Assembly: GCA_021737085.1 (NCBI GenBank)
Contig: JAIPEP010000012.1
Span: 1-32,452, forward strand
DNA from: Desulfohalobiaceae bacterium
GTDB lineage: Bacteria > Desulfobacterota > Desulfovibrionia > Desulfovibrionales > Desulfothermaceae
Direction: 5' to 3'
Length of the DNA: 32,452 nt
In this document: one piece after another, positions 381-28,347 of the stretch
Numbering within the stretch: position 1 is the first letter of the stretch
How the letters are laid out: each line of letters starts with the position of its first letter
Program-made: the position numbers and the translations under genes
Notes under the pieces: generated by a model
The model's input: the letters and a program-made list of their open reading frames with translations, nothing else
What the model was told of the DNA's origin: nothing
The model's database searches: none

Positions 381-1544
381 CTATTCCCCGATCCGTCTCA
401 GGTATTCCTCCCGGCAATTCCTCTCCACATCCAACAGGCCCCGCAGGGCCTGATTGAAGTCCCGGGCCCCGGTGGCAAAGACACCGTGGCCGTACACAAT
501 CACCCCCTTGTCCTCCTCGATCGCTGGAGGAACGGTTCTGCACAGCCCGAAGGGCCCGGTGCCCACCTCCCCAGGCACGACGGGATAGCCCCGCACCTCG
601 CGCTGTTCGGGACAGCGGCGGAAGCATTCGCCCTCTTTGTCGCAATCCCCTCTCTTGTCGCAATCCATGGACATGATCACGGAAAACTTGGGATGACCGT
701 GCAGCACGGCCAAGTGCCCCGTCTTGCGCAGAATGTCCCGATGCGCCGGTAGCTCGCTGGAAGCGGTGATCCCCGCGCAGGAGGAGTTGTCCAGGGGGCA
801 GGGGTCGATGTGGCCTATTAGCTCGTCCAGGGAGCTGCTGGTCTGGGAGATGTACAGGGTATCCCCATAGAGATAGGAGATGTTGCCGAAGAAAGAGTCC
901 ACCAGCTTGTATCCCACCACCATTTTCCCTGCCTCATCCATGGCCCGGATCATCCGTGCCTTGTCCCGGAAGGGGCCGCGCTCCAGCTCCGCATCCGGTT
1001 CCTCCGGCAAGGGGTCCAGATAGGACAGGGCCTTATGCAGCACCTCCCTCTGCTCCGGGGCTACCGAGCCGTTCTTGCTGTCCTGCAGATAGTCGGAGAA
1101 GAACTTGACGAAGCAGGCGAAGCACACCGAGCTATAGAGGATGTAGGCCTGCTCCGGGCTGACCCACCCGTAGGCCACTATCCCGCGGTCCTGGACCATA
1201 ACCGCTTTCCTGGTCCTCAGGGCCTGCGTGAGCCTCTCCGGATCCAGTGATGGAACCACCGGGATGTCATGGATAAAGGTCCTGGTCTCGCAGTCCTCCG
1301 GGAGGATCCTTCCCTCGTTTGTCCGGCACAAATAGCTGATGATGGACCTGTATGGCTCCCGGGGAGGGGAAAAGAGAAGGGAGTTGATATTTATCCTCTC
1401 GAAAACCCCCTCCAGGATCTCGGTTTGCGGATCTTCCCTGTTCCAGACCAGATCCGCGTCCAGGAAGCCGAGCAGGGCCTGTCCCGGTTCCGCAAGCTCC
1501 GCCTGTTCCAGCTTGCTCACATATTTGTCTATGATGTCCTTCAT
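381..1544 (-). CDS. Class II aldolase/adducin-like protein with degenerate N-terminal half-domain and Cys cluster
   Basis: 387 aa. The C-terminal half (~195-385) is a recognisable class II aldolase/adducin domain: G-N-I-S at 220-223, Glu264, the metal-ligand pair His282-x-His284 and a third His353 in a Y-G-H-G motif. Such enzymes use a divalent metal to stabilise an enediolate in aldol cleavage or epimerisation. Residues ~90-150 resemble the tail of a second aldolase domain (R-K-A-V-M-V-Q-D-R-G-I-V-A-Y-G), but the usual N-H-G histidine is replaced, so that copy looks non-catalytic. Cys295, 301, 307 and 311 (C-x5-C-x5-C-x3-C) lie between the second and third metal histidines and could bind metal or FeS (inference). 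The start was chosen because its ATG overlaps the stop of the upstream oxidoreductase gene (ATGA), implying coupled translation; the frame is open further upstream, but only as a shadow of that gene. The substrate is unknown. Confidence 0.8.
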   Translation of the reverse strand: MKDIIDKYVSKLEQAELAEPGQALLGFLDADLVWNREDPQTEILEGVFERININSLLFSPPREPYRSIISYLCRTNEGRILPEDCETRTFIHDIPVVPSLDPERLTQALRTRKAVMVQDRGIVAYGWVSPEQAYILYSSVCFACFVKFFSDYLQDSKNGSVAPEQREVLHKALSYLDPLPEEPDAELERGPFRDKARMIRAMDEAGKMVVGYKLVDSFFGNISYLYGDTLYISQTSSSLDELIGHIDPCPLDNSSCAGITASSELPAHRDILRKTGHLAVLHGHPKFSVIMSMDCDKRGDCDKEGECFRRCPEQREVRGYPVVPGEVGTGPFGLCRTVPPAIEEDKGVIVYGHGVFATGARDFNQALRGLLDVERNCREEYLRRIGE

Positions 1545-3286
1545 GCCCAAAGCCCCAGCTCCTTCGCCTTTTTCGGCAAGGGAAGCCCCTCCCCGTCCAG
1601 CCCCCGTATGCGGTAATAGTTGCCCCTGGCCTCCAGGAAGGCCTCCCTGTCCAGGGGCGGGACCTCCAGGTCCTCGAAGCTGCCTCCTTTGTGTGTGAAG
1701 AAGCGCTCCGGCAGATCGTCGTCGCTGGCAGTGAAGCCGTTGGCGCAATTGAGCATCCGTTCCCGGAAATAGATCCTCTCCCCGATATCCAGCAGCTGCT
1801 GCTGGGAGTATTCTATCCCTGTCACTGCGGTAAGCGCCTTGGCGTACTCCTCCAGTGTGGCGCTCAGGAAGGCGAATTTGCAGGCGGTAAGCGAGTCCAC
1901 AACCGCGTTCATGTCCTCCGCGATCTTGATGATGCGCGCCTTGCCCGCAAAGCTGAACCTGTCCGTGACCACCGGCTTGCGCAGGATCTCGTGGACAATG
2001 GGATAGGAGCGGAGGTGGCATCCCCCCCGGGTGGAGGTGGCATAGGCCAGGGCCATGCCATAGGCCCCCCTGGGGTCGTATGCCGGCAGCTCCTGGCCCT
2101 TGACGGTCACCGCCGCCTCGGGGCTGCCTTGCGCCGCGGCGTACGCCGCGCTGCCCAAGGCGAGATCCGCGCCCTCTCCCCGGCAATGGGCGATGTCCTC
2201 GATCAGGCCGAGGATTTTGTCCGGAGTCAATTCTTGGCCGGTGACCTCCGCGTAGCAGCCAAGGGTCGCGCCGGTGCTTATGGTGTCCAGCCCGTATTCC
2301 GTGCAGAGCCGGTTGGCCTCCACCACGGTCTCCCGGCTCTCGTTGCCTATCAGCGCGCTGAAATGGGACATGGTCTCGAATTCCGGCATGGGCCGCTTGT
2401 CCCGCGACCTGCGCTTGCACTGGATGCGGCATCCGGTGCAGCCGGCTTTCTTGGGGCTGTATTCCCTGAAGTAGGCAGGGGCGTTCATCTCTGTGGCGGC
2501 AGGGAAATGGGTGTGCCGGAAGTTGTCCGCGGGCATCATGCGCCTGCTGTCCATGAGATCGTACAGCGCTCCCGTGCCGAAGCTGCTTAGCCCCAGATCG
2601 CCGCTCAATACCGGGGAGGCGGCAATCAGTCTGTTGATGTCCTCTCCTGCCCGTTGCAGCCCTTCCGGATCCCACACCTTTGTTTTTCCCTCCCCCAAGA
2701 CGGTGATGTACTTTAGGTTCTTGGCGGCGCAGACCAGGCCCAGTCCGTTCCTGCCGGCAAAGAAATGGGAATCCACCACGACGTTGGCCAAGCGGGCGCC
2801 GTTTTCCGCAGCCGGCCCGATGATCAGGCTGGAGGCGCGCCCCTCCAGCCGCTCGCGGGCCTGGCTGACCCCCATCCCTTGCAGGGCCCTAGCAGGGCTC
2901 AGGGAGCACTGGGAGCCCCGGATTTCGATTCCGCATAGCTCCCGGCTCTGCCCCGTGATCACCAGGCCGTCCCAGCCCGCCTTTTTCAGGGTGCTGCCGA
3001 AGCTTCCCCCTACCGAGGAGTCTGCCAAGGTGCCGGTCAGAGGAGAGCGGGACATGACACACATCCTGCCGGAGGTGGGGGCCCTGGTATTCACTAGCGG
3101 GCCGGTCATCAGGACCAGGGGCATATCCGGGTCCTGCCAGCCCAGGGACATGCGTTCCTTCAGCAAATAGCCTGCTAAGCCCTTGCCCCCGATATAGGCT
3201 CCATAGACCTCTTGGGGCAGGGTCAGGGTGGAGGACTTCCCCTCCCTGAGATCGATACACAGGATCTTTCCGTGCCATCCGTACAT
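1541..3286 (-). CDS. Aldehyde ferredoxin oxidoreductase family protein
   Basis: 581 aa, close to the usual ~600 for tungsten/molybdenum bis-pyranopterin aldehyde:ferredoxin oxidoreductases. The N-terminal domain opens with M-Y-G-W-H-G-K-I-L and has the G-G-K-G-L-A turn at 33-38 and a G-R-N-G-L-G segment at 178-183. The [4Fe-4S] ligands are visible as Cys283-x2-Cys286-x3-Cys290, with the fourth, Cys469, in the D-S-L-T-A-C-K-F motif. A D-P-R-G motif (404-407) and D-D-D-L-P-E-R-F (522-529) are also family marks. The start at 3286 aligns with the family N-terminus and has GAGGA 7-8 nt upstream; an ORF running further upstream shows no family similarity. Known members oxidise aldehydes to acids with ferredoxin, or reduce acids; the substrate here is unassigned. 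It overlaps the aldolase-like gene by 4 nt, suggesting that one handles the other's product. Confidence 0.9.
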   Translation of the reverse strand: MYGWHGKILCIDLREGKSSTLTLPQEVYGAYIGGKGLAGYLLKERMSLGWQDPDMPLVLMTGPLVNTRAPTSGRMCVMSRSPLTGTLADSSVGGSFGSTLKKAGWDGLVITGQSRELCGIEIRGSQCSLSPARALQGMGVSQARERLEGRASSLIIGPAAENGARLANVVVDSHFFAGRNGLGLVCAAKNLKYITVLGEGKTKVWDPEGLQRAGEDINRLIAASPVLSGDLGLSSFGTGALYDLMDSRRMMPADNFRHTHFPAATEMNAPAYFREYSPKKAGCTGCRIQCKRRSRDKRPMPEFETMSHFSALIGNESRETVVEANRLCTEYGLDTISTGATLGCYAEVTGQELTPDKILGLIEDIAHCRGEGADLALGSAAYAAAQGSPEAAVTVKGQELPAYDPRGAYGMALAYATSTRGGCHLRSYPIVHEILRKPVVTDRFSFAGKARIIKIAEDMNAVVDSLTACKFAFLSATLEEYAKALTAVTGIEYSQQQLLDIGERIYFRERMLNCANGFTASDDDLPERFFTHKGGSFEDLEVPPLDREAFLEARGNYYRIRGLDGEGLPLPKKAKELGLWA

Positions 3287-4632: not shown

Positions 4633-5259
4633 TCAATTTGGGGCGGGCTCTTTGGTGATCTCCAGTAGCGAATCCGCGATATCCCGGCTCAGGGAAGCCA
4701 GTGCCTTACTCATGGCCGCGGCGACAGCTTGATGATCCGCACCCTTCACTGGGGGCTTATATACGGCCCGCCGAGTGCGAAGGGCTTTTCCGCTTTGGGT
4801 ATCCCGGAAGGTCCAATTGGCGATCAGAAGGGCCCGGTCCCGCTCCAGGGACTCGAACCGATGCACATCCAAACTGAGGCGATAGTCACTGCGAGCTCTT
4901 TTGCGTTCGGGAAACACTGCGATATTCCCGCCGCAAAGACGGGAGTTCAGATTGGCCCTCAGGACCCGGACAAAGTTCTCCCGCAAGGGCTCGGCCCAGT
5001 GATGGAGCTCGCTTAAGCTGAGCCGATTGGGCCCCACCCGGGTCACCATTTCCGAACGATCCAGGTATTCGGGGAAAGACACCGGACCGAGCTCCACGTG
5101 CGGACATGCTTCGCTCTGGGCCATGGAGCCCTCGGACCCGCCTCCCGAAGTTTTCGCGGTCAATACATAAAAGGAGGTGGGCTGAGAGGCCGTACATCCC
5201 ACAAAAAACAAGATCCCCAGGAAGAGGAGGAAGGGGCGAAAAAATGCCATGTGGCTCAT
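4633..5259 (-). CDS. ABC-transport auxiliary lipoprotein (PqiC/DUF330-like) of the Mla system
   Basis: 208 aa. A signal peptide of ~20 hydrophobic residues ends in a lipobox F-V-G-C with Cys22 as the lipidated residue, so the mature protein should be an outer- or inner-membrane lipoprotein. The mature start (S-F-Y-V-L-T-A) and the later V-x-F-P-E-Y-L-D-R-S-E-M-V-T-R pattern are typical of the family that accompanies MCE transporters (PqiC-like). The start at 5259 has TGGAGT 5 nt upstream; an in-frame ATG further upstream is less likely because it puts polar residues before the signal peptide. It is last in the mlaE-F-D order, 145 nt after mlaD, and probably links the MCE protein to the outer membrane (known of PqiC, inferred here). 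Confidence 0.85.
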   Translation of the reverse strand: MSHMAFFRPFLLFLGILFFVGCTASQPTSFYVLTAKTSGGGSEGSMAQSEACPHVELGPVSFPEYLDRSEMVTRVGPNRLSLSELHHWAEPLRENFVRVLRANLNSRLCGGNIAVFPERKRARSDYRLSLDVHRFESLERDRALLIANWTFRDTQSGKALRTRRAVYKPPVKGADHQAVAAAMSKALASLSRDIADSLLEITKEPAPN

Positions 5260-5404
5260 AGTTACTCCAGATTTGTCCATCCTAACCTGTTCCCCATCGA
5301 AAGCCATCCTATCCGGAAGGTAGCTTTTCTCCCGGGCATCCCGCTATCCGCCCGGAAGGACCAACTGGCCCGGACGAAGGACTTTCCCCGAGATTTTTAA
5401 AAAA

Positions 5405-6466
5405 TCAATTGCTCCCCTTGCCTCGCCACAGGGCATCCGGATGCCGTTCCAGGTATCGAGCCAGGGATCGAATGGAACTGGCTGCCGAGGAGACCTCCTT
5501 TAGCGCGTCCTTTAGCTGGTAGCGAAGCTCGGGGTCGCCAGCCATATCCTCCACTGCTGCTAGAGAGGTTTCGCTCTGTTTTAGTGTGGAGCGGGCAGCT
5601 TCCAGGGCCTGCCTCAGGCTGGAAGCCAGCTCTCCGCTAGCCCCCTGGTCCAGGGACAGGGTTCCCTCCATCTGCTCGAAGGCGTCTTCTGCAGCCCTGC
5701 TGGCGTTGTTCAGCTCCCGGGCAAGACGCTCCAGCCGCTTGTCCGTTCGCTGCATCATCCCTTGAGCCGAGTCCAGGGTGGTGTTCAACTGCTTCGCCAC
5801 TTGGGGCACCTCCCTGTCCAGATCCGTTAACACACTTCTGGCTGCCTGCAGGGACTTATTCAAGGCTTTAAGGCTCTCCGAGACCTGAGGGGAGTTGATG
5901 GTCCGCTCGATCCCTTCCAATGCAGAGGTAAGCTTGGTCAACAACTCCTCGAGCGGAAGTTTTTGCACAGTCCGGGAAATCTCCTGCATTCTGGAGGGAA
6001 CCGTGGGGATCTCGGGATACTTCAGATCCCGCTGGGCCATTTTCGCCGGAGTCCCGGGCATGATGTCCAGCTCGACCATGCGCTGCCCGGTAATGTAGCT
6101 CAGATTGCGGACCCGGGCCCGCATCCCCCGATCGATCAAGTCGGAGAAGAGCTCGTCCACTTGGCCCTTCCCCTCCTTCCATCGGATTAGGCGGGGATCT
6201 ATCTCGATATAGACCGGCATGTTCACGGTCATGGCTTCCGGGTTGGTCACCACGCGGACATCGGTTACTCTCCCGATTCGCACCCCCCGGAACTGGACCG
6301 GGGCGCCTTCGCTCAATCCGCTCACGGAGTTTTCGAAGTTGAGAACAAATCTCGATTTTTGCACCCAAAACTCGGACTGGGTCAAAAAAACTGCGAACAA
6401 GGCGGCAATGAGCAGCCCCCCGAGCACAAAGCTCCCTACGAGAATGCTTGTGGTCCGACCTCTCAT
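5405..6466 (-). CDS. mlaD: MlaD/MCE-domain lipid-binding protein
   Basis: 353 aa. One N-terminal transmembrane helix (~8-28) anchors it in the inner membrane, followed by an MCE domain (~36-115) with the characteristic G-A-P-V-Q-F-R-G-V-R-I-G-R-V strand. The remainder (~150-310) is a long, heptad-like helical region rich in Leu, Ser, Asn and Gln. Such tails let MCE hexamers form a periplasmic channel for phospholipids. The tail is much longer than in E. coli MlaD (183 aa), as in many delta-proteobacterial and Mce-type proteins. The ATG overlaps the stop of the ATPase gene by 4 nt (ATGA), so the two are translationally coupled. Confidence 0.92.
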   Translation of the reverse strand: MRGRTTSILVGSFVLGGLLIAALFAVFLTQSEFWVQKSRFVLNFENSVSGLSEGAPVQFRGVRIGRVTDVRVVTNPEAMTVNMPVYIEIDPRLIRWKEGKGQVDELFSDLIDRGMRARVRNLSYITGQRMVELDIMPGTPAKMAQRDLKYPEIPTVPSRMQEISRTVQKLPLEELLTKLTSALEGIERTINSPQVSESLKALNKSLQAARSVLTDLDREVPQVAKQLNTTLDSAQGMMQRTDKRLERLARELNNASRAAEDAFEQMEGTLSLDQGASGELASSLRQALEAARSTLKQSETSLAAVEDMAGDPELRYQLKDALKEVSSAASSIRSLARYLERHPDALWRGKGSN

Positions 6467-7263
6467 AATCCGCTCTCCATACGCTCTCCTCCTCGGGTGA
6501 GAAAGGCCCTGACCCTGGTATCGCCGCTGGATTGCAGGAGCTTCCTGGGCTTGCCCCTGGCGATGGCGGTCTTCTCCTTACTGTCCAGTAAAATAGCATC
6601 GTCCGCGATGGCGTAAATGCTGTCCAGCTCGTGGGTCACCACCACCATGCTCGTGCCCAGGCTGTCGCAGAGCTCCAGTATGAGGTCATCCAAGAGCTTG
6701 GCATTGACCGGATCCAGCCCGGCCGAGGGCTCGTCGAGAAAGAGGATCTCCGGATCTAGGGCCATGGCCCGGGCCAAGCCGGCCCGTTTCTGCATCCCCC
6801 CGCTCAGCTGGGCCGGATAGGACTCCTCGGCACCGGTCAAACCCACCAGGGCCAGCTTGAGGGAAACCAGATCCCGGATATCCCGGGTGGAGAGCTCGGT
6901 ATACAGCTCCAGGGGCAAGGCCACGTTCTCCGACAGGGTCATGGAGCTCCACAGGGCCCCCCGTTGATATAGCACGCCGCAACGGCGCAGAATCTCCTTC
7001 CGCGCCGAGTCCGACCCGCCCCAGAAGTCCTCGCCGCGGAACAGGACCTCTCCGCTGTCGGGCCGAGCAAGACCCACGAGGGCCTTGAGCAGGGTGGACT
7101 TCCCGCTGCCGCTCTCGCCCATGACCACGAACACCTCGCCCTCCCGGACCTGAAAACTCACCCCTTCCAGGACCACATACCCTCCGTAGCTCACCAGCAT
7201 ATCCTTCACACTCAAGTGGATGGAGGGGCCCCCGGGGGGATTGTTTTCCGCCTGCTCCCGCAT
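6463..7263 (-). CDS. mlaF: Mla-type ABC transporter ATPase
   Basis: 266 aa, cytoplasmic ATPase of the phospholipid transporter. Walker A G-E-S-G-S-G-K-S-T at 49-57, Q-loop Gln100, signature L-S-G-G-M-Q-K-R at 153-160, Walker B I-L-F-L-D-E at 173-178, and switch His211. The L-S-G-G-M-Q-K-R-A-G-L-A-R-A form is typical of MlaF/Ttg2A. The start at 7263 was preferred because upstream in-frame codons overlap only the spacer after mlaE; GGAG lies ~10 nt before it. It overlaps mlaD by 4 nt and lies 74 nt after mlaE. Confidence 0.93.
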   Translation of the reverse strand: MREQAENNPPGGPSIHLSVKDMLVSYGGYVVLEGVSFQVREGEVFVVMGESGSGKSTLLKALVGLARPDSGEVLFRGEDFWGGSDSARKEILRRCGVLYQRGALWSSMTLSENVALPLELYTELSTRDIRDLVSLKLALVGLTGAEESYPAQLSGGMQKRAGLARAMALDPEILFLDEPSAGLDPVNAKLLDDLILELCDSLGTSMVVVTHELDSIYAIADDAILLDSKEKTAIARGKPRKLLQSSGDTRVRAFLTRGGERMESGL

Positions 7264-7337
7264 GGCTATCCACTCCGTACTCGGCCTGACCTTTGAACCA
7301 TAGCCGCTGCGTAACCTGATACAGGCTCGCCTTCCGG

Positions 7338-8519
7338 CTAAATCCCCACAATGTCGCAAAGCACGGCCAATATACCGTCGGTGGCAATGATGGCCACTGT
7401 TGCCGTAACTACGGCTGATGTGGCAGCAAAGCCCACAGCTGCTGCGTTTCGCTCCGACTGCATTCCCCGGAAGCATCCGATCAAGCCGACCAAGAAACCG
7501 AACAAAACGCTCTTGAAGAGCCCGATTCCCAGATCTACAGTGCTAAAAGCGAGCTCGGCCTGATCCACAAATTGTATGAAGGGAATATCGAGCATGCCCA
7601 CCGCCACGGTCAACCCGCCCAGCATCCCCATAAAATCGGCGTAGAGGCACAAAACAGGCATCATCAGGACTAGGGCCACGATCCGGGGGGCGACAAGGAA
7701 CTCCATGGGAGAGAGCCCTAGAGTGTTCAGGGCATCTATCTCCTCGTTCAGGTTCATGGTTCCCAGATGAGCCGCATAGGCCGCTCCGGTCCTGCCCGCC
7801 ATGATGATGCCGGTCATGAAAGCTCCCATCTCCCGGATCATGGATATGGTGATCAGGTTGGCCACATAGATCTGCGCCCCGAACTGCTTGAGCTGGACCG
7901 CTCCCACAAAAGCCAGGATGAGCCCGACCAAGAGGTTGACCAGGGCGATGATGCTCAGGGCCTCCACTCCACACTCCCGGATCAGGACCCCAAAATCCCT
8001 CTTGCGGAAAGAGCCCATCCCCATGACGAACCGCGCCGAGGCCCTTGCGGACCTGCCCAGAAACTCCAGGAAATAGAGGGCGTCCTTAACTAGCGCAAAA
8101 ACTCCGTGTCGAAAGATCTCCTGGACAAATCCGCTTTGCTCCCGCTTCCCGACTTGCTCCTCCGGCGGTCTCGCCGTGGCCAGATCCACCAGACGCATTG
8201 CTCCGGAAGGAAGGCCAGTGAGATCAAAGACAATACCCCTTTTGTGACAGACTTCCTCAAGACGGAGCAAAACTGTGATCAAGCGGCTGTCCCAGGCAAA
8301 GAGCTCCTGAGTGTCGAACTGCAGACGTTCCACCAGCGTGGTGCGGCAAAAGTCATTCAGCCCGCGGACCACTCCGGGAAAAAGGGAATGCTCCTTGGTC
8401 CAGGCCCCCTTCATGGCCAGGATGGCTATACCCTCTGCGCCGTAACGGAAGCTGAACTCAGGCTGCGGAGACTTTCCGGTGGCGGGATTACTTCCCGGAC
8501 TGGATCCGGATTCCGTCAT
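7338..8519 (-). CDS. mlaE: MlaE-family permease with N-terminal STAS domain
   Basis: 393 aa, against ~260 for a plain MlaE. The first ~125 residues resemble a STAS domain (F-S-F-R-Y-G-A-E-G-I-A-I-L-A-M-K-G then L-I-T-V-L-L-R-L ... I-V-F-D-L-T-G-L-P), the role of separate MlaB in E. coli. The remainder is the permease, with several hydrophobic helices and the diagnostic L-G-T-M-x-L-N-E-E-I-D-A-L-x-T-L-G loop after a G-R-T-G-A-A-Y-A-A segment. The fused regulator means no separate mlaB is needed. The start at 8519 has GGAGAGGGGG upstream. It is the first gene of the mlaE-F-D-lipoprotein operon, divergent from the OYE-type reductase gene. Confidence 0.92.
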   Translation of the reverse strand: MTESGSSPGSNPATGKSPQPEFSFRYGAEGIAILAMKGAWTKEHSLFPGVVRGLNDFCRTTLVERLQFDTQELFAWDSRLITVLLRLEEVCHKRGIVFDLTGLPSGAMRLVDLATARPPEEQVGKREQSGFVQEIFRHGVFALVKDALYFLEFLGRSARASARFVMGMGSFRKRDFGVLIRECGVEALSIIALVNLLVGLILAFVGAVQLKQFGAQIYVANLITISMIREMGAFMTGIIMAGRTGAAYAAHLGTMNLNEEIDALNTLGLSPMEFLVAPRIVALVLMMPVLCLYADFMGMLGGLTVAVGMLDIPFIQFVDQAELAFSTVDLGIGLFKSVLFGFLVGLIGCFRGMQSERNAAAVGFAATSAVVTATVAIIATDGILAVLCDIVGI

Positions 8520-14592: not shown

Positions 14593-15383
14593 TACTTCAG
14601 CCCTCCTTTGGATTTGAGGAGTTCCACCAGCTTCTCGGCCACTTCCTCGGTGCTGCCCTCCAGGATCTCGGCGCCTTCACCCATCTCGGGATGGAAGTAG
14701 TCCACGCGCTTGACCCGGGCCGCCTGCTCGCCGACCTGATCCTCGGACAGTCCCAGGTCGGAGGCACCCTTCTCCGGGATCTCCACCCCGGAGACCTTGC
14801 GGATGCCCCGGATGCCCACGTAGCGAGGCTCGTTGATTCCGGACTGGATGGAGAGGACACAGGGCAGTTCTATCTCGTTGACCTCCTGGTTACCGCCCTC
14901 GATCTCTCGTCCAACCTGTAGCTTGTCACCCCCCTGCACCTGGATCTCGTTGACCAGGGAGGCGTAGGGGTAGTCCAGCAGCGCGGCGAGCATGCCGCCG
15001 GTCTGGGCCGCGCCCTCGTCGCTCTGGGCGCCGGCAAGGATCAGATCATAGTTTCCGCTCTCCGCCACCGACTTGAGAATGGTGGCCAGCCCCAGGCCGT
15101 CCGAGCCCTGGAAGGCGTCGTCGGAAACCAGGATGCCTTGATCAGCTCCCATGGCCATTTCACGCCGCAGGATCTCCTCGGAATCCTCGTCGCCAACACT
15201 GACCACGGTCACGCTTCCGCCGTGCTGATCCCGGATCTGGATGGCCTCCTCCACTGCATAGTTGTCCCATTCGTTGACCGAGTAGACCAGATCCTCGCGA
15301 TCGATGTCGCTTCCGTCCTTGTTTATCTCGATTTCGTTTTCCGCGGGATCCGGAACCCGTTTGACGCATACGAGAATATTCAT
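14592..15383 (-). CDS. etfB: Electron transfer flavoprotein, beta subunit
   Basis: 263 aa. Starts with the family mark M-N-I-L-V-C-V-K-R-V-P-D, followed by Y-S-V-N-E-W-D-N-Y-A-V-E-E-A and the nucleotide-binding segment L-A-G-A-Q-S-D-E-G-A-A-Q-T-G-G (normally G-x-Q-A-x-D-x-D-x-x-Q-x-G). This subunit binds AMP in classic ETFs and a second FAD in bifurcating ones. No FixC or NADH-partner gene lies beside it, so a classic non-bifurcating ETF is the more likely reading. GGAGGTGG precedes the start. It lies 101 nt after the membrane oxidoreductase gene, in the same operon. Confidence 0.95.
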   Translation of the reverse strand: MNILVCVKRVPDPAENEIEINKDGSDIDREDLVYSVNEWDNYAVEEAIQIRDQHGGSVTVVSVGDEDSEEILRREMAMGADQGILVSDDAFQGSDGLGLATILKSVAESGNYDLILAGAQSDEGAAQTGGMLAALLDYPYASLVNEIQVQGGDKLQVGREIEGGNQEVNEIELPCVLSIQSGINEPRYVGIRGIRKVSGVEIPEKGASDLGLSEDQVGEQAARVKRVDYFHPEMGEGAEILEGSTEEVAEKLVELLKSKGGLK

Positions 15384-15484
15384 ACGTCCACCTCCGGTTT
15401 GTTGGTGTTCACTACCTTGCTTGGGGGTGCCTTCATCCGCTCTGCCGTCTCCTCAAAGGGGAAAAGGGGCTCCGCTAAAGTGGC

Positions 15485-17560
15485 TCACTTGTTCTCCCAA
15501 TCCAGATGCCGGACCACCAGCTCGGTCAGATCCATTATCTGGATTTGACCCTCCTTGCCGCTTGTCTTGATCCCGTCCTCCAGATTGGTCAGGCAGAAGG
15601 GGCAACAGCTTACCACCAGGTCCGCTCCGGTCTCGGCGATCATCTGCGCCCGCTTCTGTCCCATGCGCTGTTCCTCCTCCGGCGGCTCGTAGAAGAGCAT
15701 GAGTCCACCGCCGCCGCAGCAGAAGGAGCGGTCTCTGCTGCGCTCCATCTCCACCCGCGTCAGCCCGGGGATGGAATCCAGAATCTGGCGCGGGGTGTCG
15801 TAGAGCAAATTGTGCCTGCCCATATAACACGGATCGTGGTAGGTGACCAGAGAAACATCCTCCTGCAGAGGCTTGAGCTTGATCGCGCCGGAGCGGATCT
15901 TGTCCAGGATGAACTGGCTGATGTGCTGCGCAGGGGGAATATCTGCATAATCCTTGTTCAGGGCGTTGAAGGCGTGGGGGTCGGAGGTTAGCAGACGCTT
16001 GGCCCCGCTATTCTGGATGGCCTGGGTGTTGGTGTCCCGCAGGGTCTGGAAGAGCATTTCCTCCCCGAAGCGGCGCACCTCGTGGCCGCTGTCCCTCTCC
16101 GCCTTGCCCAGGATGCCGAAGTCCTCGCCACAGTAGTGCAGGATGGTGGCGCTGGCCCGGGCGATCTCCTGGAGCCTCTCGTCAAAGGAGCTCGCGCTGT
16201 CCACGAAAAAGAGGGTTTCCGGATTCTCCTTGGAACCGGCCACCTGGACCTGGACCCCCTCGGGCAGCTCCTGGGTCCATTCCTGGCGCTTCTTCTCCAT
16301 CTTGCCGTAGGGATTGCCCCGCTTCTCCAGAGCACCCAGAGGCTTCTGCAGGGACTGCGGTACCTTGCCCTCCTCCACCATGGCCCGGCGCAGATCCACC
16401 ATCTTGTCGATGTACTCGTTCATCACCGGGCACTCTTCCTCGCAGGCACCACAGGTGGTGCAGGACCAGATCTCGTCCTCCTCGAAGACATTGCCCACCA
16501 GGGGCTCCCGTTCCTTGATCTCCCCGAAAACGGGGAAGCGGTCGAAGCAGTGGTCACGGGCCTTGATGGAGATAAACCGCGGGGAGAGCGGTCGGCCCAC
16601 GGTCGCGGCAGGGCAGTTGTCCGAGCATCTGCCGCAGTCCACGCAGGTGTAGAAGTCGAGCATGTGCTTCCAGGTGAAGTCCTCCAGGTGCCTTACCCCA
16701 AAGGACTCCAGGTTGTCCAGCTCCTCGTCGCTCACATCCCACCGGACCGGTTTCACCCTGCCCCGGTCCAGCTTGAGGAAGACCACATTGAAGATGGAGC
16801 TGATAACGTGGAAGTGCTTGCCGAAGGGGAGAAAGCAGAGGAAGAAGAAAAAGATCAGGTCGTGGAGGAAATAGGCGGCGGAATGCATGGACTGCAGGGC
16901 GGCAATCGGAGCGGCCCCCAGAACTATGCTGAAGAACCAGGCCAGGCTTAGCGGGGCGACCATTTCCACAGCAGCGCCCTGTTGGGCCTGGGCTGCGACA
17001 GCAGTGGCCTCGAACAGGCTCTCGAAGACCATGAGGCCCCCGATGAGGCCGAGCACGAAAATGGCCTCCCAGGTGTGCTCCGTGCCGTACTTGGCCGGGA
17101 CTTTGTAGCGCTCCGGCTTGAACACCCCACGCCTTATACCGGCTGCAATGCAGGCAAGGAGCACCACTGTCGCGGCGTAATCCTTGAGCACGCTGTATAC
17201 GACCCCTGATGTCCCATCCAGCCCGGGAAAGACGAACTCCGGGTTCACCCCCATGATCACCAGGCTTATGGAACGAATGGAGAGGATGATGAAACCGGCG
17301 AAGATGAGGATGTGCAGAACCCCGGCTAGCCGGTAGCGGGGCTGCTTGTATTGGGCCAGCCAATACAGGAGCACTTTTTTGATCCGGGTGGGGAAGCGAT
17401 CGAAGCGGGGATCGGATGTGCCTTTGGCCAGAGGGATGAGTCGTCTGGCAATAATGTAGAGGAAGGCGCAGATGCCCACAACGGGTATGAGCAGGGAAAG
17501 AAAAATGCCGGGGATGCCCAGAACGCTGATCTCTGCCGGAGGAATCAATAGGTGTTCCAT
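15485..17560 (-). CDS. Membrane FeS/CCG oxidoreductase, probable ETF:(methyl)menaquinone oxidoreductase
   Basis: 691 aa. Residues ~10-260 hold about six transmembrane helices of NarI-like cytochrome-b type with several His (83, 226, 233, 249, 251) suited to haem. Two [4Fe-4S] motifs follow, C306-x2-C309-x2-C312-x3-C316-P and C367-x2-C370-x2-C373-x3-C377-P. Then come two CCG-type halves. The second is intact (H-D-P-C578, C614-C615-G, C652-C653-P-x-C656). The first (~452-531) keeps the fold pattern (S-S-F-D-E-R-L-Q-E-I-A-R-A) but has lost its Cys ligands (V-D-S-A-S, R-D-S-G-H, S-D-P-H-A-F). This architecture and the place between an acyl-CoA dehydrogenase gene and etfBA match the EMO-type complexes of Geobacter and syntrophs that pass ETF electrons to menaquinone. 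TAGGA lies just before the start. Confidence 0.9.
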   Translation of the reverse strand: MEHLLIPPAEISVLGIPGIFLSLLIPVVGICAFLYIIARRLIPLAKGTSDPRFDRFPTRIKKVLLYWLAQYKQPRYRLAGVLHILIFAGFIILSIRSISLVIMGVNPEFVFPGLDGTSGVVYSVLKDYAATVVLLACIAAGIRRGVFKPERYKVPAKYGTEHTWEAIFVLGLIGGLMVFESLFEATAVAAQAQQGAAVEMVAPLSLAWFFSIVLGAAPIAALQSMHSAAYFLHDLIFFFFLCFLPFGKHFHVISSIFNVVFLKLDRGRVKPVRWDVSDEELDNLESFGVRHLEDFTWKHMLDFYTCVDCGRCSDNCPAATVGRPLSPRFISIKARDHCFDRFPVFGEIKEREPLVGNVFEEDEIWSCTTCGACEEECPVMNEYIDKMVDLRRAMVEEGKVPQSLQKPLGALEKRGNPYGKMEKKRQEWTQELPEGVQVQVAGSKENPETLFFVDSASSFDERLQEIARASATILHYCGEDFGILGKAERDSGHEVRRFGEEMLFQTLRDTNTQAIQNSGAKRLLTSDPHAFNALNKDYADIPPAQHISQFILDKIRSGAIKLKPLQEDVSLVTYHDPCYMGRHNLLYDTPRQILDSIPGLTRVEMERSRDRSFCCGGGGLMLFYEPPEEEQRMGQKRAQMIAETGADLVVSCCPFCLTNLEDGIKTSGKEGQIQIMDLTELVVRHLDWENK

Positions 17561-17632
17561 AGTCCTAATCCTTGTTCAGCAGTTTCATTCCACCAGCCGC
17601 GGAGTCTGGAGCCTCCCCGGACTGGCTCTTAT

Positions 17633-19447
17633 TTATTTTCCGCCGAAATGATCCTCTTCCATATCCACCGCGGTTGCGTCAAGGTGGTTTATCAGATCCA
17701 TCTTGCCCAGGGTTATGGGCAGTACGGAATTCACAAAATATTCCATGGTCTTGATCTGTCCCTCATAAAAGGGCACATCCTTCTTCTTGGCCCCGTCCAA
17801 CTGCTGCGCGGCCACGGTGGATCGCCACAAAAGCATCCAGGCCATGACCACGTCCCCGCTCACCTCCATGAAAGGATAGGCGTTGGCGAAGGCCTTCATC
17901 ACCTCTTCGGAGGCCGCTTTCTGCCCGATATTCATGGACACCTCGGCCAGCTTGTTCACCGCCTTTTCCACCTGCTCCGCGGATTCGGCCACGCGGGAGA
18001 CCTCCTTGGCCTGGGCAATGGTGGTGTGCACCTCGCCCATGAGGTCCATGATGGCCTTACCCTTTTTCATGCCCAGCTTGCGGCCTAGCAGATCCATGGC
18101 CTGAATGCCGTTGGTCCCCTCATAAATGGGGGTAATGCGGCAATCGCGCAGTAGCTGTTCCTGGGGGTACTCCCTGATATAGCCGAATCCCCCGTAGATC
18201 TGAATGCCCAGGTTGCACACGTCGATGGCCCTGTCCGTGCAGTAGGCCTTGCAGATGGGGATGAGCACATCGATGATATTCTGATACTTTTCCTGTTCAT
18301 CCTCGCTTTCGGCCACCCTTTTCCTGTCCTCGCAGTAGTTGGCGTAGTAGATCAGGCTGCGCATGCCGTCCGCATAGACCTTCATGTTGAGCAGCATGCG
18401 GCGGACGTCGGGGTGCTGGATGAGGGGGACCGCGGGAGCGCTCTTATCCGCCATGTTCATCAGGTGCCTGCCCTGCTCCCGCTCCCGGGCGTAGTTGACT
18501 GCGTTCATGTAGGAGTTGGAGGCCAGGGCCAGACCCTGCATGCCCACCAGGAGCCGGGCCTGGTTCATCATGAGGAACATCTGGCGCATACCCTTGTTCT
18601 CGCGACCCAGAAGCATCCCCTTGCACCGGCCCTTGTCCCCGAGGTTCATGGTGCAGGTGGAGCTGCCGTGGATGCCCATCTTTTCCTCCACGCCGCTGCA
18701 GACAATGTCGTTGAACTCGCCCATGCTCCCGTCCTCGTGGACCCAGTACTTGGGCACCAGGAAGAGGGAGATCCCCGCGGTTCCGGCAGGCGCGCCCTCG
18801 ATTCGGGCCAGGACGGGATGGACGATGTTCTCCGTCATATCCTGGTCTCCGCCGGTGATAAAGATCTTCTGCCCGGAGAGGTTGTAGGTCCCGTCCCCGT
18901 TGGGCGTGGCCTGGGTGGTGATGGCTCCCAGGTCCGAGCCGGCCTGGGGCTCGGTGAGCAGCATGGTCCCGCCCCATTGCCCGGTATAGATCTTCTCCAA
19001 AAACATCTTTTTCTGTTGCTCTGTGCCGAACTCCTCGATAAGGTGTCCCGCTCCCGTGGTCAAGCCGATGTAGAGGTTCAGGGCCGTGTTCGCCCCCAGG
19101 AGGTAGTCGCTCGCGCCCATGCCCACGGACTTGGGCATGCCCTGGCCGCCGTAGTCCGGATTCTCCGTGGTCCCTACCCATTCGCCTTCGCAGTAGAGCC
19201 GGTAGGCCCGGTGGAACTCCTCCGGAACCCTGACCTGACCGTTCTCCAGACTGACCCCCTTGTCGTCGCCGATCTTGTTGGTGGGCAGGATCTCCTTCAG
19301 GGCCAGATTGCGGGCCTCCTTGACGATCATCTCGATGGTCTTGCGGTTGAACTCGGCGAACTGCTCGGACTGGCTCAATTGATCCACCGCGAACTGCTCG
19401 AACATGACAAAATCGATGTCACGGCGGTCTGCGATTTGTTGTGCCAT
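17633..19447 (-). CDS. Acyl-CoA dehydrogenase (long, FadE/AcdH type)
   Basis: 604 aa, the ~600-residue class with an extra C-terminal domain. It has the FAD-contact segment M-L-L-T-E-P-Q-A-G-S-D-L-G-A, the K-I-F-I-T-G-G-D strand, and the catalytic-base region I-Y-E-G-T-N-G-I-Q-A-M-D-L-L-G-R-K, where the Glu abstracts the alpha proton. It makes trans-2-enoyl-CoA and reduces ETF. The start at 19447 is fixed by AAGGAGG 8-9 nt upstream; the frame is open to 19507 but that stretch is Ala/Pro/Gln-rich and overlaps the TetR stop. It follows the TetR gene by 59 nt and precedes the membrane oxidoreductase by 72 nt. Confidence 0.94.
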   Translation of the reverse strand: MAQQIADRRDIDFVMFEQFAVDQLSQSEQFAEFNRKTIEMIVKEARNLALKEILPTNKIGDDKGVSLENGQVRVPEEFHRAYRLYCEGEWVGTTENPDYGGQGMPKSVGMGASDYLLGANTALNLYIGLTTGAGHLIEEFGTEQQKKMFLEKIYTGQWGGTMLLTEPQAGSDLGAITTQATPNGDGTYNLSGQKIFITGGDQDMTENIVHPVLARIEGAPAGTAGISLFLVPKYWVHEDGSMGEFNDIVCSGVEEKMGIHGSSTCTMNLGDKGRCKGMLLGRENKGMRQMFLMMNQARLLVGMQGLALASNSYMNAVNYAREREQGRHLMNMADKSAPAVPLIQHPDVRRMLLNMKVYADGMRSLIYYANYCEDRKRVAESEDEQEKYQNIIDVLIPICKAYCTDRAIDVCNLGIQIYGGFGYIREYPQEQLLRDCRITPIYEGTNGIQAMDLLGRKLGMKKGKAIMDLMGEVHTTIAQAKEVSRVAESAEQVEKAVNKLAEVSMNIGQKAASEEVMKAFANAYPFMEVSGDVVMAWMLLWRSTVAAQQLDGAKKKDVPFYEGQIKTMEYFVNSVLPITLGKMDLINHLDATAVDMEEDHFGGK

Positions 19448-19506
19448 TTTCTGGCCTCCTTGGTTGGGGTTGACGTTTGCCTGAGGAGCGGTTGCGGCCT
19501 CCGGCA

Positions 19507-20118
19507 TCAGGGCTCAACTGCCGAAGCCCCGTTGGTGCCGATCCCGTTGATGAACAGGTCCACCAGAGGCTCGGCCTGGGAGACGAGCCGATAGTCCTTG
19601 GAGGAGTAGAGCCAGGTGGTTATCACCTCGTCCACGGCTCCGATGAGGTATTGCTTGACCAAGTGGACGGGGATGTTCTGGCGGATGGTTCCCTCCTGCC
19701 GGCCCTGCTCCACGATCTCGGCCACGAGATCGAAATACATCCGGGACATCTCCTTGATCTTTTCATCGGAGAGATGCCGCCTCATCCGGGTCTCCACCTC
19801 GTAGACCACAGCCAGATCCCTGTTTTGCTCGAATTCCGTGAGATGACTGGCGACAAGCCGCTCCAGTTTCTCCAGGGCATTGTGGCAGGTGTCCACTTCC
19901 TCCTTGAACTGGGAAAAGATCTGGGTGGTCTTGTAACTGAAGAAGTTGTCCAGGATATCGTCCTTGTTCTTGAAGTAGAGGTAGATCGTTCCATCTCCCA
20001 CCCCGGCTTCCCTGGCCACCTGGGAGATGGTGGAGTTGTGATAGCCCTGTCTGGCGAAGACGCGAATGGCGGCCTCCAGGATCTGTTCGTATTTGGCCCT
20101 TTTCTTGGTCTGATTCAC
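19507..20118 (-). CDS. TetR-family regulator of fatty-acid degradation (FadR-like)
   Basis: 203 aa. The N-terminal helix-turn-helix is typical: I-L-E-A-A-I-R-V-F-A-R-Q-G-Y-H, then T-I-S-Q-V-A-R-E-A-G-V-G-D-G-T-I-Y-L-Y-F (about 29-48), followed by an all-helical ligand domain. It is similar in plan to Bacillus FadR, a TetR protein released from DNA by long-chain acyl-CoA. The start is GTG with GGGAG upstream. It is the first gene of the operon with acyl-CoA dehydrogenase and etf genes, and its own promoter carries the palindrome at 20151-20172, so autoregulation is likely; the same site at 28427-28450 suggests that it also controls the fadN-fadA operon (inference). Confidence 0.88.
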   Translation of the reverse strand: MNQTKKRAKYEQILEAAIRVFARQGYHNSTISQVAREAGVGDGTIYLYFKNKDDILDNFFSYKTTQIFSQFKEEVDTCHNALEKLERLVASHLTEFEQNRDLAVVYEVETRMRRHLSDEKIKEMSRMYFDLVAEIVEQGRQEGTIRQNIPVHLVKQYLIGAVDEVITTWLYSSKDYRLVSQAEPLVDLFINGIGTNGASAVEP

Positions 20119-24735: not shown

Positions 24736-25905
24736 CTAGACCCTTTCCAGGAGGCCGGCGGCACCCATGCCCCCTCCGATGCACATGGAGACCAGGCCGT
24801 ACCTGACCTCCCGCCGCTGCATCTCGTGCAGCAGGGTGGTGGTCAGCTTGGCCCCGGTGCAGCCCAGGGGATGCCCCAGGGCGATAGCCCCGCCGTTGAC
24901 GTTGACCATGCTCTGGTCCAGGCCCAATGCATCCATGCAGTACAGGGCCTGGGAGGCAAAGGCCTCGTTAAGCTCCACCAGGCCGATATCCTCCAGGGAA
25001 AAGCCGCACTTGTCCAGGACACCGGGGATGGCCTTGGAGGGACCGATGCCCATGAGCTCGGGAGGCACGCCCTGCACGTCGTAGCCCACGAAGCGGGCCA
25101 TGGGATCCTTGCCCAGCTTCTTCACAAATTCCTCGGAGACCACCAAGACCGCGGCGGCTCCGTCGGTCATCTGGGAGGAGTTGCCTGCGGTGACCACCCC
25201 GTCCTGCTTGAAGGGTGTCTTGAGCTGGGCCATTTTTTCCGGGGTGGAGTCCCTGGGCCCGTCGTCGATGTCCACGAGCTCGGTTGTCTTTTCCAGCTTG
25301 TTGCCCGAGAGCTTGGACCGCTCCACGTTCACCGGAACGATCTCCTCCTGGAAACGTCCCTGCTCTATGGCCTGCAGTGCCCTGCGGTTACTCTGCAGCC
25401 CGAACTCGTCCTGGCGATCCCGGGGGATGCCGTACTTCTCCGCCACCTTCTCCGCGGTGATGCCCATTGTGGCGTACGCCCCGGGCCACCAGCCCACCAG
25501 CTCGGGGTTGGCGGAGTAGTTCTTCCCGCCCATGGGGACCTTGGTCATGGACTCGGTCCCGCCGGCGATAATGCAGTCGGCAAACCCGGCCATGATCCGC
25601 TCCGCTGCCATGGAGATGGACTGCAGCCCGGAGGAGCAGAAGCGGTTCACGGTCTGACCCGGGACCTCATAGGGAATCCCGGCGCCCAGGGCCGCCATGC
25701 GGCCCACGTTCATACCCTGTTCCCCTTCGGGGAAGGAACAGCCCAGGATCACGTCCTCTACATGGCTCGGATCCACGCCGGTGCGCTCCAAGAGCCCCTT
25801 CAGGGCAGTGGTGGCCAGGTCGTCCGGCCGCACGTTGGCGAACTTGCCGCGTTTGGCCCGGCACCCGGCCGTCCGTACCGCTTTGAGTATATAGGCGTTA
25901 GGCAT
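24736..25905 (-). CDS. fadA: 3-ketoacyl-CoA thiolase (acetyl-CoA C-acyltransferase)
   Basis: 389 aa, usual length. Nucleophile Cys90 in [16 protein letters not shown], the catalytic His in [12 protein letters not shown] and the second Cys in C-I-G-G-G-M-G. It has the degradative-type [11 protein letters not shown] start and cleaves 3-ketoacyl-CoA with CoA as the last step of beta-oxidation. AGGGAGG precedes the ATG. It follows the fadN-type gene by 54 nt under the same operator. Distinct from the thiolase at 11402, which has an insertion and no operator. Confidence 0.95.
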
Positions 25906-25959
25906 AAAAAACCTCCCTGTCTTTGCAGTGATTTCCGGGTTGGCAGAAAGCCCGCTGAA

Positions 25960-28347
25960 TTAGTTACGCAGGGGCTTATTCGTCTTTAAGATGTGGTCGA
26001 CACGCTCCTGCGTCTTCTGATTCTTGCTCAGCCGGACGAAGCCCTCCCGCTCCAGATCAAGGAGGTACTGTTCAGTGATCAATGTACCGGGATCGACATC
26101 CCCGCCACAGAGCGCATCAGCCACAATACCCCCCATTTGGTACTCGTATTCGGTAATGAAGTTGCCTTCCTTCATGTTCCAGAGCTGGCTCTTGATGCTC
26201 GCGGAGACATCCCTGCCCGGCGCCTTGAATGGTCTGGGATGCCTGGGCCGATAGTTCGCCGCCAGGGAGAGGACCTTCTGCTTGGCATCGCCGAGGAGGC
26301 TGTCTATGTCGAAGGTCACGCTGTCGCCCTTTCGCATGTACCCCAGGTTGAACGCGTCGTCCGCTCCCTGGGAGACCTTGGCTTGGCCGATATTCTGGAA
26401 GAACTTGAACAGGAGGTCCTGGGAGCTCACCCCGTAAGTTTCCTCCATTTCCACGGCCCGCACGCAAAGCTCCTTGATACCTCCGCCTGCGGGGAGCAGG
26501 CCGGCACCCATCTCCACGAGGCCCATGTAGGTTTCCACGTAGGCGTTGATTGCGTCGCTGTTCAGACAGAACTCGCAGCCACCGCCCAGGGCCATCCAGA
26601 AGGGCGCGGCCACGACGGGCACGTGACAATACTTCAGGGCCAAGGTCGCCTGCTGGAATTTGTGGACGATCTGATCCAGCTGCTCCCATTTGCCCTCCTG
26701 AACCGCTCCGGCGAGCAGGAAGAGATTTGCGCCGACGGAGAAGCGCTCGCCCTGGTTGCCCACCACGATGCCCACGCCCTCCTGCTCCGCGCGTTCCACG
26801 CAGCGAAAGCACATGTCCAGCATATCCTCGCTGATGGAGTTCTGGGGGGCGTGGAACTCCAGGCAGAAGACCCCGTCCCCCAGATCGAGTATGGAGGAGT
26901 TCTCTCCCTGCTCCACAACCCCTCCTGCCTTCTTGACCAGATCCAGATCGATCTGTTCCGGCTTGGAGGGGACTTCCCTGAAGGTGTTATGCAGGATGTC
27001 CAGATAGTACTTGATCCCGCCCTCTATCTTATAGAAGCACTCCATCTCCTTCAGCTTGTCCGGCACCTGCAGGCCGTCCTTTTCCGCCCGCTGCACGAAG
27101 TAGTCCACTCCGATGGCGTCGAACATCTGGAAAGGCCCCAGCTCCCAGTTGAATCCCCATTTCATGGCGTTGTCGATGTTGACTATGTCGTCAGCGATCT
27201 CGGGGATGCGCTTGAAGGCGTAGAGCAGGGTGTCCCGCAGATTGCGCCAGGCGAACTCCGCCGCCTTGTCCTCCCCCTGGATCACCGCCTTTAGGGTCTC
27301 TCCGGTGGTCTGGGCCATCCTGGCCAGCTTGATGGATTCGAACTTAGGCTTCTGCACCGGCTTGTATTCGCCCGCTTCGTAGTCCCAGTAGTAGCGCTGC
27401 ACACCCTCCTCTGTCTTTTCCTTCTTGTAGAAGCCCTGCTTGGTCTTGTCCCCCAGCTGATTACTGCTCAGCATGGTGTCCACCCAGTCCGGCAACAGAA
27501 AAGCCTCGCGCTCCTCGTCGTGGGGCAGATTGTCGTAGGAATTCTTGGCCACGTGGGCCATGGTGTCCAGCCCCACCAGATCAATGGTCTTGAAGGCTGC
27601 CGTCTTGGGCCGTCCGGTGGGCTTGCCCGCCACGGCGTCCACCTCCTCCACGCTCATGCCCAGGTCCCTCATGTGCTGGAAGGACTTGGCGATGGAGTAG
27701 ACCCCGATACGATTGCCCACGAAGTTGGGGGTATCCTTGCAGTAGACGATACCCTTGCCCAGCCGCTTGTTGAGGAAGTCGGCCATATCCCGGACCACGC
27801 CGGGATCGGCCTCGTTGCAGCCCACTATCTCCATTAGCCGCATATAGCGGGGAGGATTGAAAAAATGGGTGACCATGAAGTTCCTGCGCACCTCCGGTGG
27901 CAGGGCGGTGGCCATCTCGTTGATGGACAGGCCGCTGGTGTTGGAGGAGAGCACCGCCCCCTCCTTGAGATGGGCGGCAACATTGGGGAGCACCTTCTTC
28001 TTGATGTCCATGTTCTCCACCACCACCTCGATAACCCAGTCGCAGTCACTCAGTTTGTCCAGGTCGTCCTCCAGATTGCCCACTTCGATGAGGCGGGCGT
28101 AGTCGTTCTGCAAAAAGGGAGCCGGCCTGGTGGTGTACAGGGACTCCAGCCCCTGCCGGGCGATGCGGTTGCGCACCTGGGGGCTCTCCAGGGTAAGCCC
28201 CTTCTCCTTCTCCTTCTCCTCCTCGGTCAGCTCCTTGGGGACAATGTCCAGTAGCACCACCTCCAGGCCCGCATTGGCCATATGGGCGGCTATGGTGGCA
28301 CCCATCACTCCGGCACCGAGTACTCCTGCCCGTTTGATCCTTCTCAT
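25960..28347 (-). CDS. fadN: 3-hydroxyacyl-CoA dehydrogenase / enoyl-CoA hydratase fusion (FadN type)
   Basis: 795 aa. The dehydrogenase is N-terminal: NAD-binding G-A-G-V-M-G-A-T-I-A near 10-19 and the catalytic region M-V-T-H-F-F-N-P-P, followed by two C-terminal dehydrogenase domains (T-P-N-F-V-G-N-R-I and later). The hydratase part begins near 490, with the oxyanion-hole segments R-F-S-V-G-A-N-L and A-L-G-G-G-C-E-F and G-L-V-E-M-G-A-G-L-L-P. This dehydrogenase-first order is that of Bacillus FadN, opposite to E. coli FadB. It converts enoyl-CoA to 3-ketoacyl-CoA. GGAGG lies 7 nt before the ATG. First gene after the operator-promoter at 28427-28481. Confidence 0.95.
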   Translation of the reverse strand: MRRIKRAGVLGAGVMGATIAAHMANAGLEVVLLDIVPKELTEEEKEKEKGLTLESPQVRNRIARQGLESLYTTRPAPFLQNDYARLIEVGNLEDDLDKLSDCDWVIEVVVENMDIKKKVLPNVAAHLKEGAVLSSNTSGLSINEMATALPPEVRRNFMVTHFFNPPRYMRLMEIVGCNEADPGVVRDMADFLNKRLGKGIVYCKDTPNFVGNRIGVYSIAKSFQHMRDLGMSVEEVDAVAGKPTGRPKTAAFKTIDLVGLDTMAHVAKNSYDNLPHDEEREAFLLPDWVDTMLSSNQLGDKTKQGFYKKEKTEEGVQRYYWDYEAGEYKPVQKPKFESIKLARMAQTTGETLKAVIQGEDKAAEFAWRNLRDTLLYAFKRIPEIADDIVNIDNAMKWGFNWELGPFQMFDAIGVDYFVQRAEKDGLQVPDKLKEMECFYKIEGGIKYYLDILHNTFREVPSKPEQIDLDLVKKAGGVVEQGENSSILDLGDGVFCLEFHAPQNSISEDMLDMCFRCVERAEQEGVGIVVGNQGERFSVGANLFLLAGAVQEGKWEQLDQIVHKFQQATLALKYCHVPVVAAPFWMALGGGCEFCLNSDAINAYVETYMGLVEMGAGLLPAGGGIKELCVRAVEMEETYGVSSQDLLFKFFQNIGQAKVSQGADDAFNLGYMRKGDSVTFDIDSLLGDAKQKVLSLAANYRPRHPRPFKAPGRDVSASIKSQLWNMKEGNFITEYEYQMGGIVADALCGGDVDPGTLITEQYLLDLEREGFVRLSKNQKTQERVDHILKTNKPLRN

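Follow-up and report, generated by a model that had tools for sequence, protein, structure and literature searches.

The stretch of 32,452 nucleotides analyzed here (the window) encodes on its minus strand a tungsten-type aldehyde:ferredoxin oxidoreductase (AOR), followed by a class II aldolase with two domains. The reading that we favor, with moderate confidence, is that the two proteins couple a DHAP-type aldol cleavage to a ferredoxin-dependent oxidation of the aldehyde, with 5-deoxyribulose 1-phosphate and/or 5-methylthioribulose 1-phosphate as the most probable substrate. If this is correct, it provides a physiological role for a subset of the tungsten AORs, the natural substrates of which are mostly unknown, and it suggests a function for a protein family that is annotated only as 'aldolase'.

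The AOR gene (1541-3286, minus strand, as are all features of the pair) is intact and encodes 581 amino acids; the aldolase gene (381-1544) encodes 387 amino acids. The stop of the former and the start of the latter overlap by 4 nt (ATGA, 1544-1541), as stated in the first-pass annotation of this DNA. The Pfam domains AFOR_N (E 5.7e-57) and AFOR_C (E 2.9e-104) together span the whole length of the AOR. A phmmer comparison identified AFOR from C. autoethanogenum (9g7j, E 1e-92) as the nearest solved relative; AOR from P. furiosus (1aor) scored with E 1.5e-88, and the similarity to FOR (E 1e-59) and WOR5 (E 1e-26) was weaker. Judged by these scores, the protein belongs to the AOR type within the tungsten oxidoreductase family. 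The 4Fe-4S ligands C283, C286, C290 and C469 as well as H424 occur in 67/67 aligned AORs of the pair type, the active-site residue E302 in 65/67, and the regions around P301/E302 and H424 are intact in the window protein. The AOR hence resembles 1aor and 9g7j over its whole length and in its FeS ligands and active-site residues; it differs from them in that no aldolase partner gene was found for these enzymes, and its own substrate is a predicted one.

The aldolase DrdA produces DHAP and acetaldehyde with a Keq of about 1e-4 (PMC6079011). AFOR from C. autoethanogenum is reported to oxidize acetaldehyde and reduce ferredoxin, with acetate/acetaldehyde at -580 mV versus ferredoxin near -400 mV (PMC12727526). 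In the proposed mechanism the metal-dependent C-terminal domain of the aldolase would cleave a ketose 1-phosphate into DHAP and a short aldehyde, namely acetaldehyde or methylthioacetaldehyde. The AOR would then oxidize this aldehyde to the acid with reduction of ferredoxin, and the removal of the aldehyde would pull the unfavorable cleavage forward. This would be an example of an aldol equilibrium that is pulled by a low-potential oxidation, which recovers the electrons in ferredoxin. The pair could also work in the reverse, biosynthetic direction, in which the AOR reduces an acid with ferredoxin and the aldolase condenses the aldehyde with DHAP to a deoxyketose 1-phosphate. Condensation is indeed favored by the aldol equilibria (PMC6079011), and AFOR can run as an acid reductase in C. 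autoethanogenum; the reduction is however strongly uphill without CO-driven ferredoxin (PMC12727526), and no linked gene could use the product. We consider this direction very improbable.

The catalytic domain of the aldolase comprises residues 193-387 (384-968) and is FucA/DrdA-like. PF00596 matched residues 203-379 (E 1.1e-17; 65 bits versus a cut-off of 22.2), and the AlphaFold2 model of the protein has a pLDDT of 94. The top fold match of the domain is FucA (2fk5, Z 21.6); the 5-deoxyribulose-1-phosphate aldolase DrdA (6btg) also matches with Z 20.0. Since FucA and DrdA are both strong matches, the modeled fold cannot name the substrate. The catalytic Glu264 (753-755, in an SSE motif), the metal ligands His282 and His284 (HGH, 693-701) and His353 (486-488), and a four-cysteine insert, C295-x5-C301-x5-C307-x3-C311 (Cys4; 612-662), between the second and third metal ligands are all present exactly as noted in the first-pass annotation. 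The phosphate-binding motifs N-x-S, T-(G/S) and SSE are intact. The family PF00596 is functionally diverse, and YgbL, MtnB-type APIP and decarboxylases are also among the fold matches of the domain. The protein could catalyze another class II reaction, such as the decarboxylation or dehydration known from OtnC, MtnB or PhtC, while the AOR oxidizes an aldehyde that is not derived from a DHAP-type cleavage. Such a reaction appears improbable, given that Glu264 with the SSE and N-x-S phosphate motifs is the DHAP aldolase type and that, of all profiles, PRK08660 (NF006413) matches the catalytic domain far better than any other (E 3.6e-40). The window aldolase scores 137.8 bits with this profile and thereby stays under the equivalog cut-off of 203 bits.

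The coupling might also be the same and the sugar a different one: L-fuculose-1-P, L-rhamnulose-1-P or ribulose-1-P would be cleaved and the AOR would oxidize lactaldehyde or glycolaldehyde. This is in line with the top match to FucA and with the promiscuity of class II aldolases and AORs. The profile scores, however, gave no fucA, rhaD or RU1P equivalog assignment, and no sugar kinase, isomerase or transporter was recurrently linked to the pair in 80 loci. An unlinked, single-copy and widespread pair furthermore resembles a housekeeping function and not sugar catabolism, so that we regard another sugar as unlikely.

An alignment of 110 homologues, mostly with 42-60% identity to the window protein and a few from one and the same genome, showed which residues of the aldolase are kept. 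E264, H282 and H284 are present in 110/110 and H353 in 108/110 sequences; C295 and C301 are kept in 110/110 and C307 and C311 in 109/110, the exception being a truncated sequence. The other cysteines of the protein are less conserved in the same homologues, and on the basis of this alignment the conservation of the Cys4 and catalytic residues is far above chance. The spacing of the insert among the homologues is C-x4 to x8-C-x5-C-(H)-x2-C; position 308 is a His in 96% of them and a Phe in this genome. A natural deletion of the Cys4 loop occurs in one genome (G577), at a contig end. Counted from the metal ligands, the insert corresponds approximately to the interface loop with the catalytic Tyr113 in FucA. 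The latter shares the metal and phosphate sites with the window protein but has no Cys4 insert, which here replaces the Tyr113 loop. The likeliest occupant of the Cys4 site is a structural Zn, or else a 4Fe-4S cluster, and the insert would close the active site.

The first-pass annotation had called the N-terminal part of the aldolase (residues 1-190; 975-1544) a His-less partial aldolase domain. The absence of metal ligands was correct; the term 'partial' was ruled out by a separate model and fold comparison. Modeled alone, these residues form a full class II fold (AlphaFold2 pLDDT 94), which matches 2flf with Z 17.8 and an rmsd of 1.7 over 148 residues. The N and C halves align with each other by hhalign (E 7e-6), and the similarity in sequence is visible only in the second half of the N domain. 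A loop in this domain, P82-x-D-C-E-T-R-T-F-x-H-D93 (1266-1301), is nearly invariant among the homologues; in the alignment of the two halves it appears to occupy a place equivalent to that of the Cys4 insert in the C domain. The active site of FucA lies at the subunit interface. The subunits of FucA have a single domain and are all alike, while the window aldolase consists of two unequal fused domains. DrdA, a class II aldolase of this fold, is a tetramer (PMC6079011). Because such aldolases are tetrameric with active sites at the interface, we infer that the fused dead N copy most likely supplies the neighboring subunit's half of each site. The protein would then form a pseudo-tetramer, in which only half the number of active sites remains.

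A scan of genome contigs yielded at least 122 relatives of the aldolase, of which 80 were kept. Their genomes are mostly MAGs, with Desulfospira joergensenii, Fundidesulfovibrio agrisoli and Salidesulfovibrio brasiliensis as cultured representatives. According to the bin names they include Desulfobacterota groups, Fermentibacteria/Aegiribacteria, WOR-3/Stahlbacteria, Eisenbacteria, Aminicenantes, Planctomycetota and Hydrogenedentota. The AOR gene is directly upstream of the aldolase in 71 of the 77 loci with enough upstream sequence, in bins of at least seven bacterial lineages, and 60 of these 71 pairs overlap. In two more loci the AOR is 2-3 kb away, in one of them with an SLFN/AlbA-type gene in between. 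Adjacency restricted to this genome, or loss of the four cysteines in homologues, had been named in advance as evidence against a functional coupling; because adjacency extends over several lineages and essentially all homologues keep the four cysteines, neither is the case. No third gene recurs widely beside the pair in the 80 loci; the pair is a stand-alone unit. The distances among the AORs and among the aldolases are correlated (Mantel r 0.80; 2000 permutations reached at most 0.15), a correlation which is partly due to shared organismal descent.

These data also bear on the possibility that the two genes are merely co-transcribed and that the AOR is a general aldehyde scavenger without a dedicated coupling to the aldolase. 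Additional AOR-family paralogues were found in 11/11 genomes searched, and at one locus (L048) a zinc alcohol dehydrogenase abuts the two-domain aldolase in place of the AOR. On the other hand, the overlap is conserved across lineages and the two proteins diverge in a correlated manner; even the replacement at L048 belongs to an enzyme class that uses aldehydes, which fits with an aldehyde as product of the aldolase. We give little credence to co-transcription alone. Genes for an LsrF-like thiolase and for an amidohydrolase lie upstream at the same locus (L048:1849-7188).

A search of a sample of the phylum Desulfobacterota uncovered seven single-domain PRK08660 aldolases above the cut-off, and all seven are located directly behind an AOR (genomes G398, G402, G404, G435, G439, G470 and G474). 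Two such AOR-linked relatives reach 218.7 and 223.7 bits (cut-off 203), and those whose sequence was read have neither the N domain nor the Cys4 insert. The linkage to an AOR thus predates the two-domain Cys4 branch or extends beyond it, and the insert, as far as the sequences tell, is a trait of this branch, which with its pseudo-aldolase N domain sets the window protein apart from the PRK08660 'aldolase'. Because these AOR-linked aldolases do without Cys4, the coupling cannot depend on the insert alone; the suggestion that it is an FeS or docking element for the AOR is weakened and, as originally worded, unsupported. The more general proposal of an aldol cleavage with direct ferredoxin-linked oxidation of the product is well supported by the overlap and adjacency, by the Mantel correlation and by the linkage of the single-domain aldolases, and a complex of the two enzymes with channeling of the aldehyde is conceivable; the substrate is proposed from the content of the genomes.

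In the preferred reading MtnP and MtnA would make the ketose 1-phosphates from 5'-deoxyadenosine and MTA. We found mtnA in 318/348 Desulfovibrionia genomes and, among the pair-bearing genomes to which the loci led, in 31/34; MtnA in the window's own genome is encoded at G000:C33:4105-5076 (E 5e-126). We rejected the presence of mtnA as a proof of the substrate, since 91-94% of the genomes have the gene with or without the pair. It is only a precondition and says little by itself. Its near-universal occurrence implies that nearly all Desulfovibrionia should make, and need to remove, 5-deoxyribulose-1-P or 5-methylthioribulose-1-P. A physical linkage of the pair to mtnA or mtnP was also dismissed: mtnA lies within about 4 kb of the pair in only 1/80 loci (L047), which is compatible with chance. 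An MTAP-type phosphorylase gave a strong match in 21/26 pair-bearing genomes examined. The genome of the window itself, a MAG with 89% completeness, had no such match, which speaks against the preferred reading.

The occurrence of the pair is largely mutually exclusive with that of canonical class II aldolases. Among the Desulfovibrionia, 6/87 pair-bearing versus 211/261 pair-free genomes encode a canonical PF00596 aldolase (Fisher 1e-36, ignoring phylogeny). The same holds at the level of genera (3/18 versus 37/41, p 6e-8) and in a wider sample of the phylum (5/23 versus 154/223, p 1e-5), both again ignoring phylogeny; the exclusion fails in one family (f38). An extra aldolase in genome G307 was discarded as a replacement for the pair: it sits in a sugar ABC-transporter region and is hence probably unrelated. 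Among the near-complete genomes any PF00596 protein occurs in 1/11 without mtnA, many of which are reduced genomes, versus 224/235 with mtnA. Because some genomes with mtnA lack any PF00596 protein, another disposal route must exist. Together, mtnA, MTAP, the exclusion tests and the thermodynamics of the aldol and AOR reactions make disposal of 5'-deoxyadenosine/MTA the best supported function, and the role of the pair is probably to remove a toxic compound that radical enzymes leave behind. This would explain 5'-deoxyadenosine disposal in strict anaerobes that are rich in radical SAM enzymes and have no canonical aldolase.

In its chemistry the pair very probably follows a variant of the DHAP shunt, the known route for the disposal of 5-deoxyribose, with the AOR as aldehyde sink. 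The shunt aldolases DrdA and Ald2 share with the window protein the class II fold, the metal His, the catalytic Glu and the phosphate motif. The products would be the same, DHAP together with acetaldehyde or methylthioacetaldehyde, and mtnA is found in the same genomes. The shunt aldolases differ in being single-domain proteins without Cys4. The organisms studied pass the aldehyde on to an alcohol dehydrogenase or AdhE (PMC10986504), while a tungsten AOR is proposed here; the described clusters contain mtnA or mtnK, and the pair is clustered with neither. More tentatively, the pair may represent a dedicated tungsten-dependent branch in the disposal of radical-SAM by-products. In this scenario the aldolase, which has a dead partner domain and a Cys4 lid that binds a metal or FeS, would dock on the AOR and pass acetaldehyde to it directly, and many anaerobic phyla would convert 5'-deoxyadenosine to DHAP, acetate and reduced ferredoxin in this way. 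The first-pass annotation knew no characterized pathway of this form. This statement holds within the literature that we searched, which covered few subscription papers: it contained no report of an AOR-aldolase operon, of a comparable two-domain class II aldolase with one dead half, or of the Cys4 insert.

Other arrangements of class II aldolase genes were seen during this search. The window's own genome encodes, besides the pair, one more class II aldolase, with a TrmO domain as fusion partner (G000:C133; L119:4601-5614); its presence speaks against the favored reading. The same fusion, with an N-terminal domain of TrmO (tRNA t6A methyltransferase), occurs at L165:1726-2874, and genome G235 has a TrmO-aldolase fusion gene that shares 4 nt with the start of an AOR gene of the pair type. 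Several Desulfovibrionales families commonly have open reading frames of similar length (about 330-390 aa) around a class II aldolase. At L158:1493-2805, L159:4765-6011 and L179:2-1074 a PRK08660-like class II aldolase is directly followed by a TalC-type transaldolase gene, without an AOR. In pair-free genomes of genus g13 (L123:4401-6207, L126:5201-6943) the class II aldolase stands behind genes for a ThiL-like kinase and a UvrD helicase.

A search for regulatory RNAs of the operon gave no Rfam match except one tRNA gene (RF00005; 10793-10865, minus strand), and promoter motifs matched only at chance level. The minus strand of the window further carries Mla-type transport genes (4636-7476) for an ABC_trans_aux lipoprotein, an MlaD protein and an ABC ATPase. 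It also has two groups of beta-oxidation genes (14595-19507 and 24739-28347), which include an ETF subunit, a CCG/4Fe-4S protein, an acyl-CoA dehydrogenase, a thiolase and a 3-hydroxyacyl-CoA dehydrogenase fusion.
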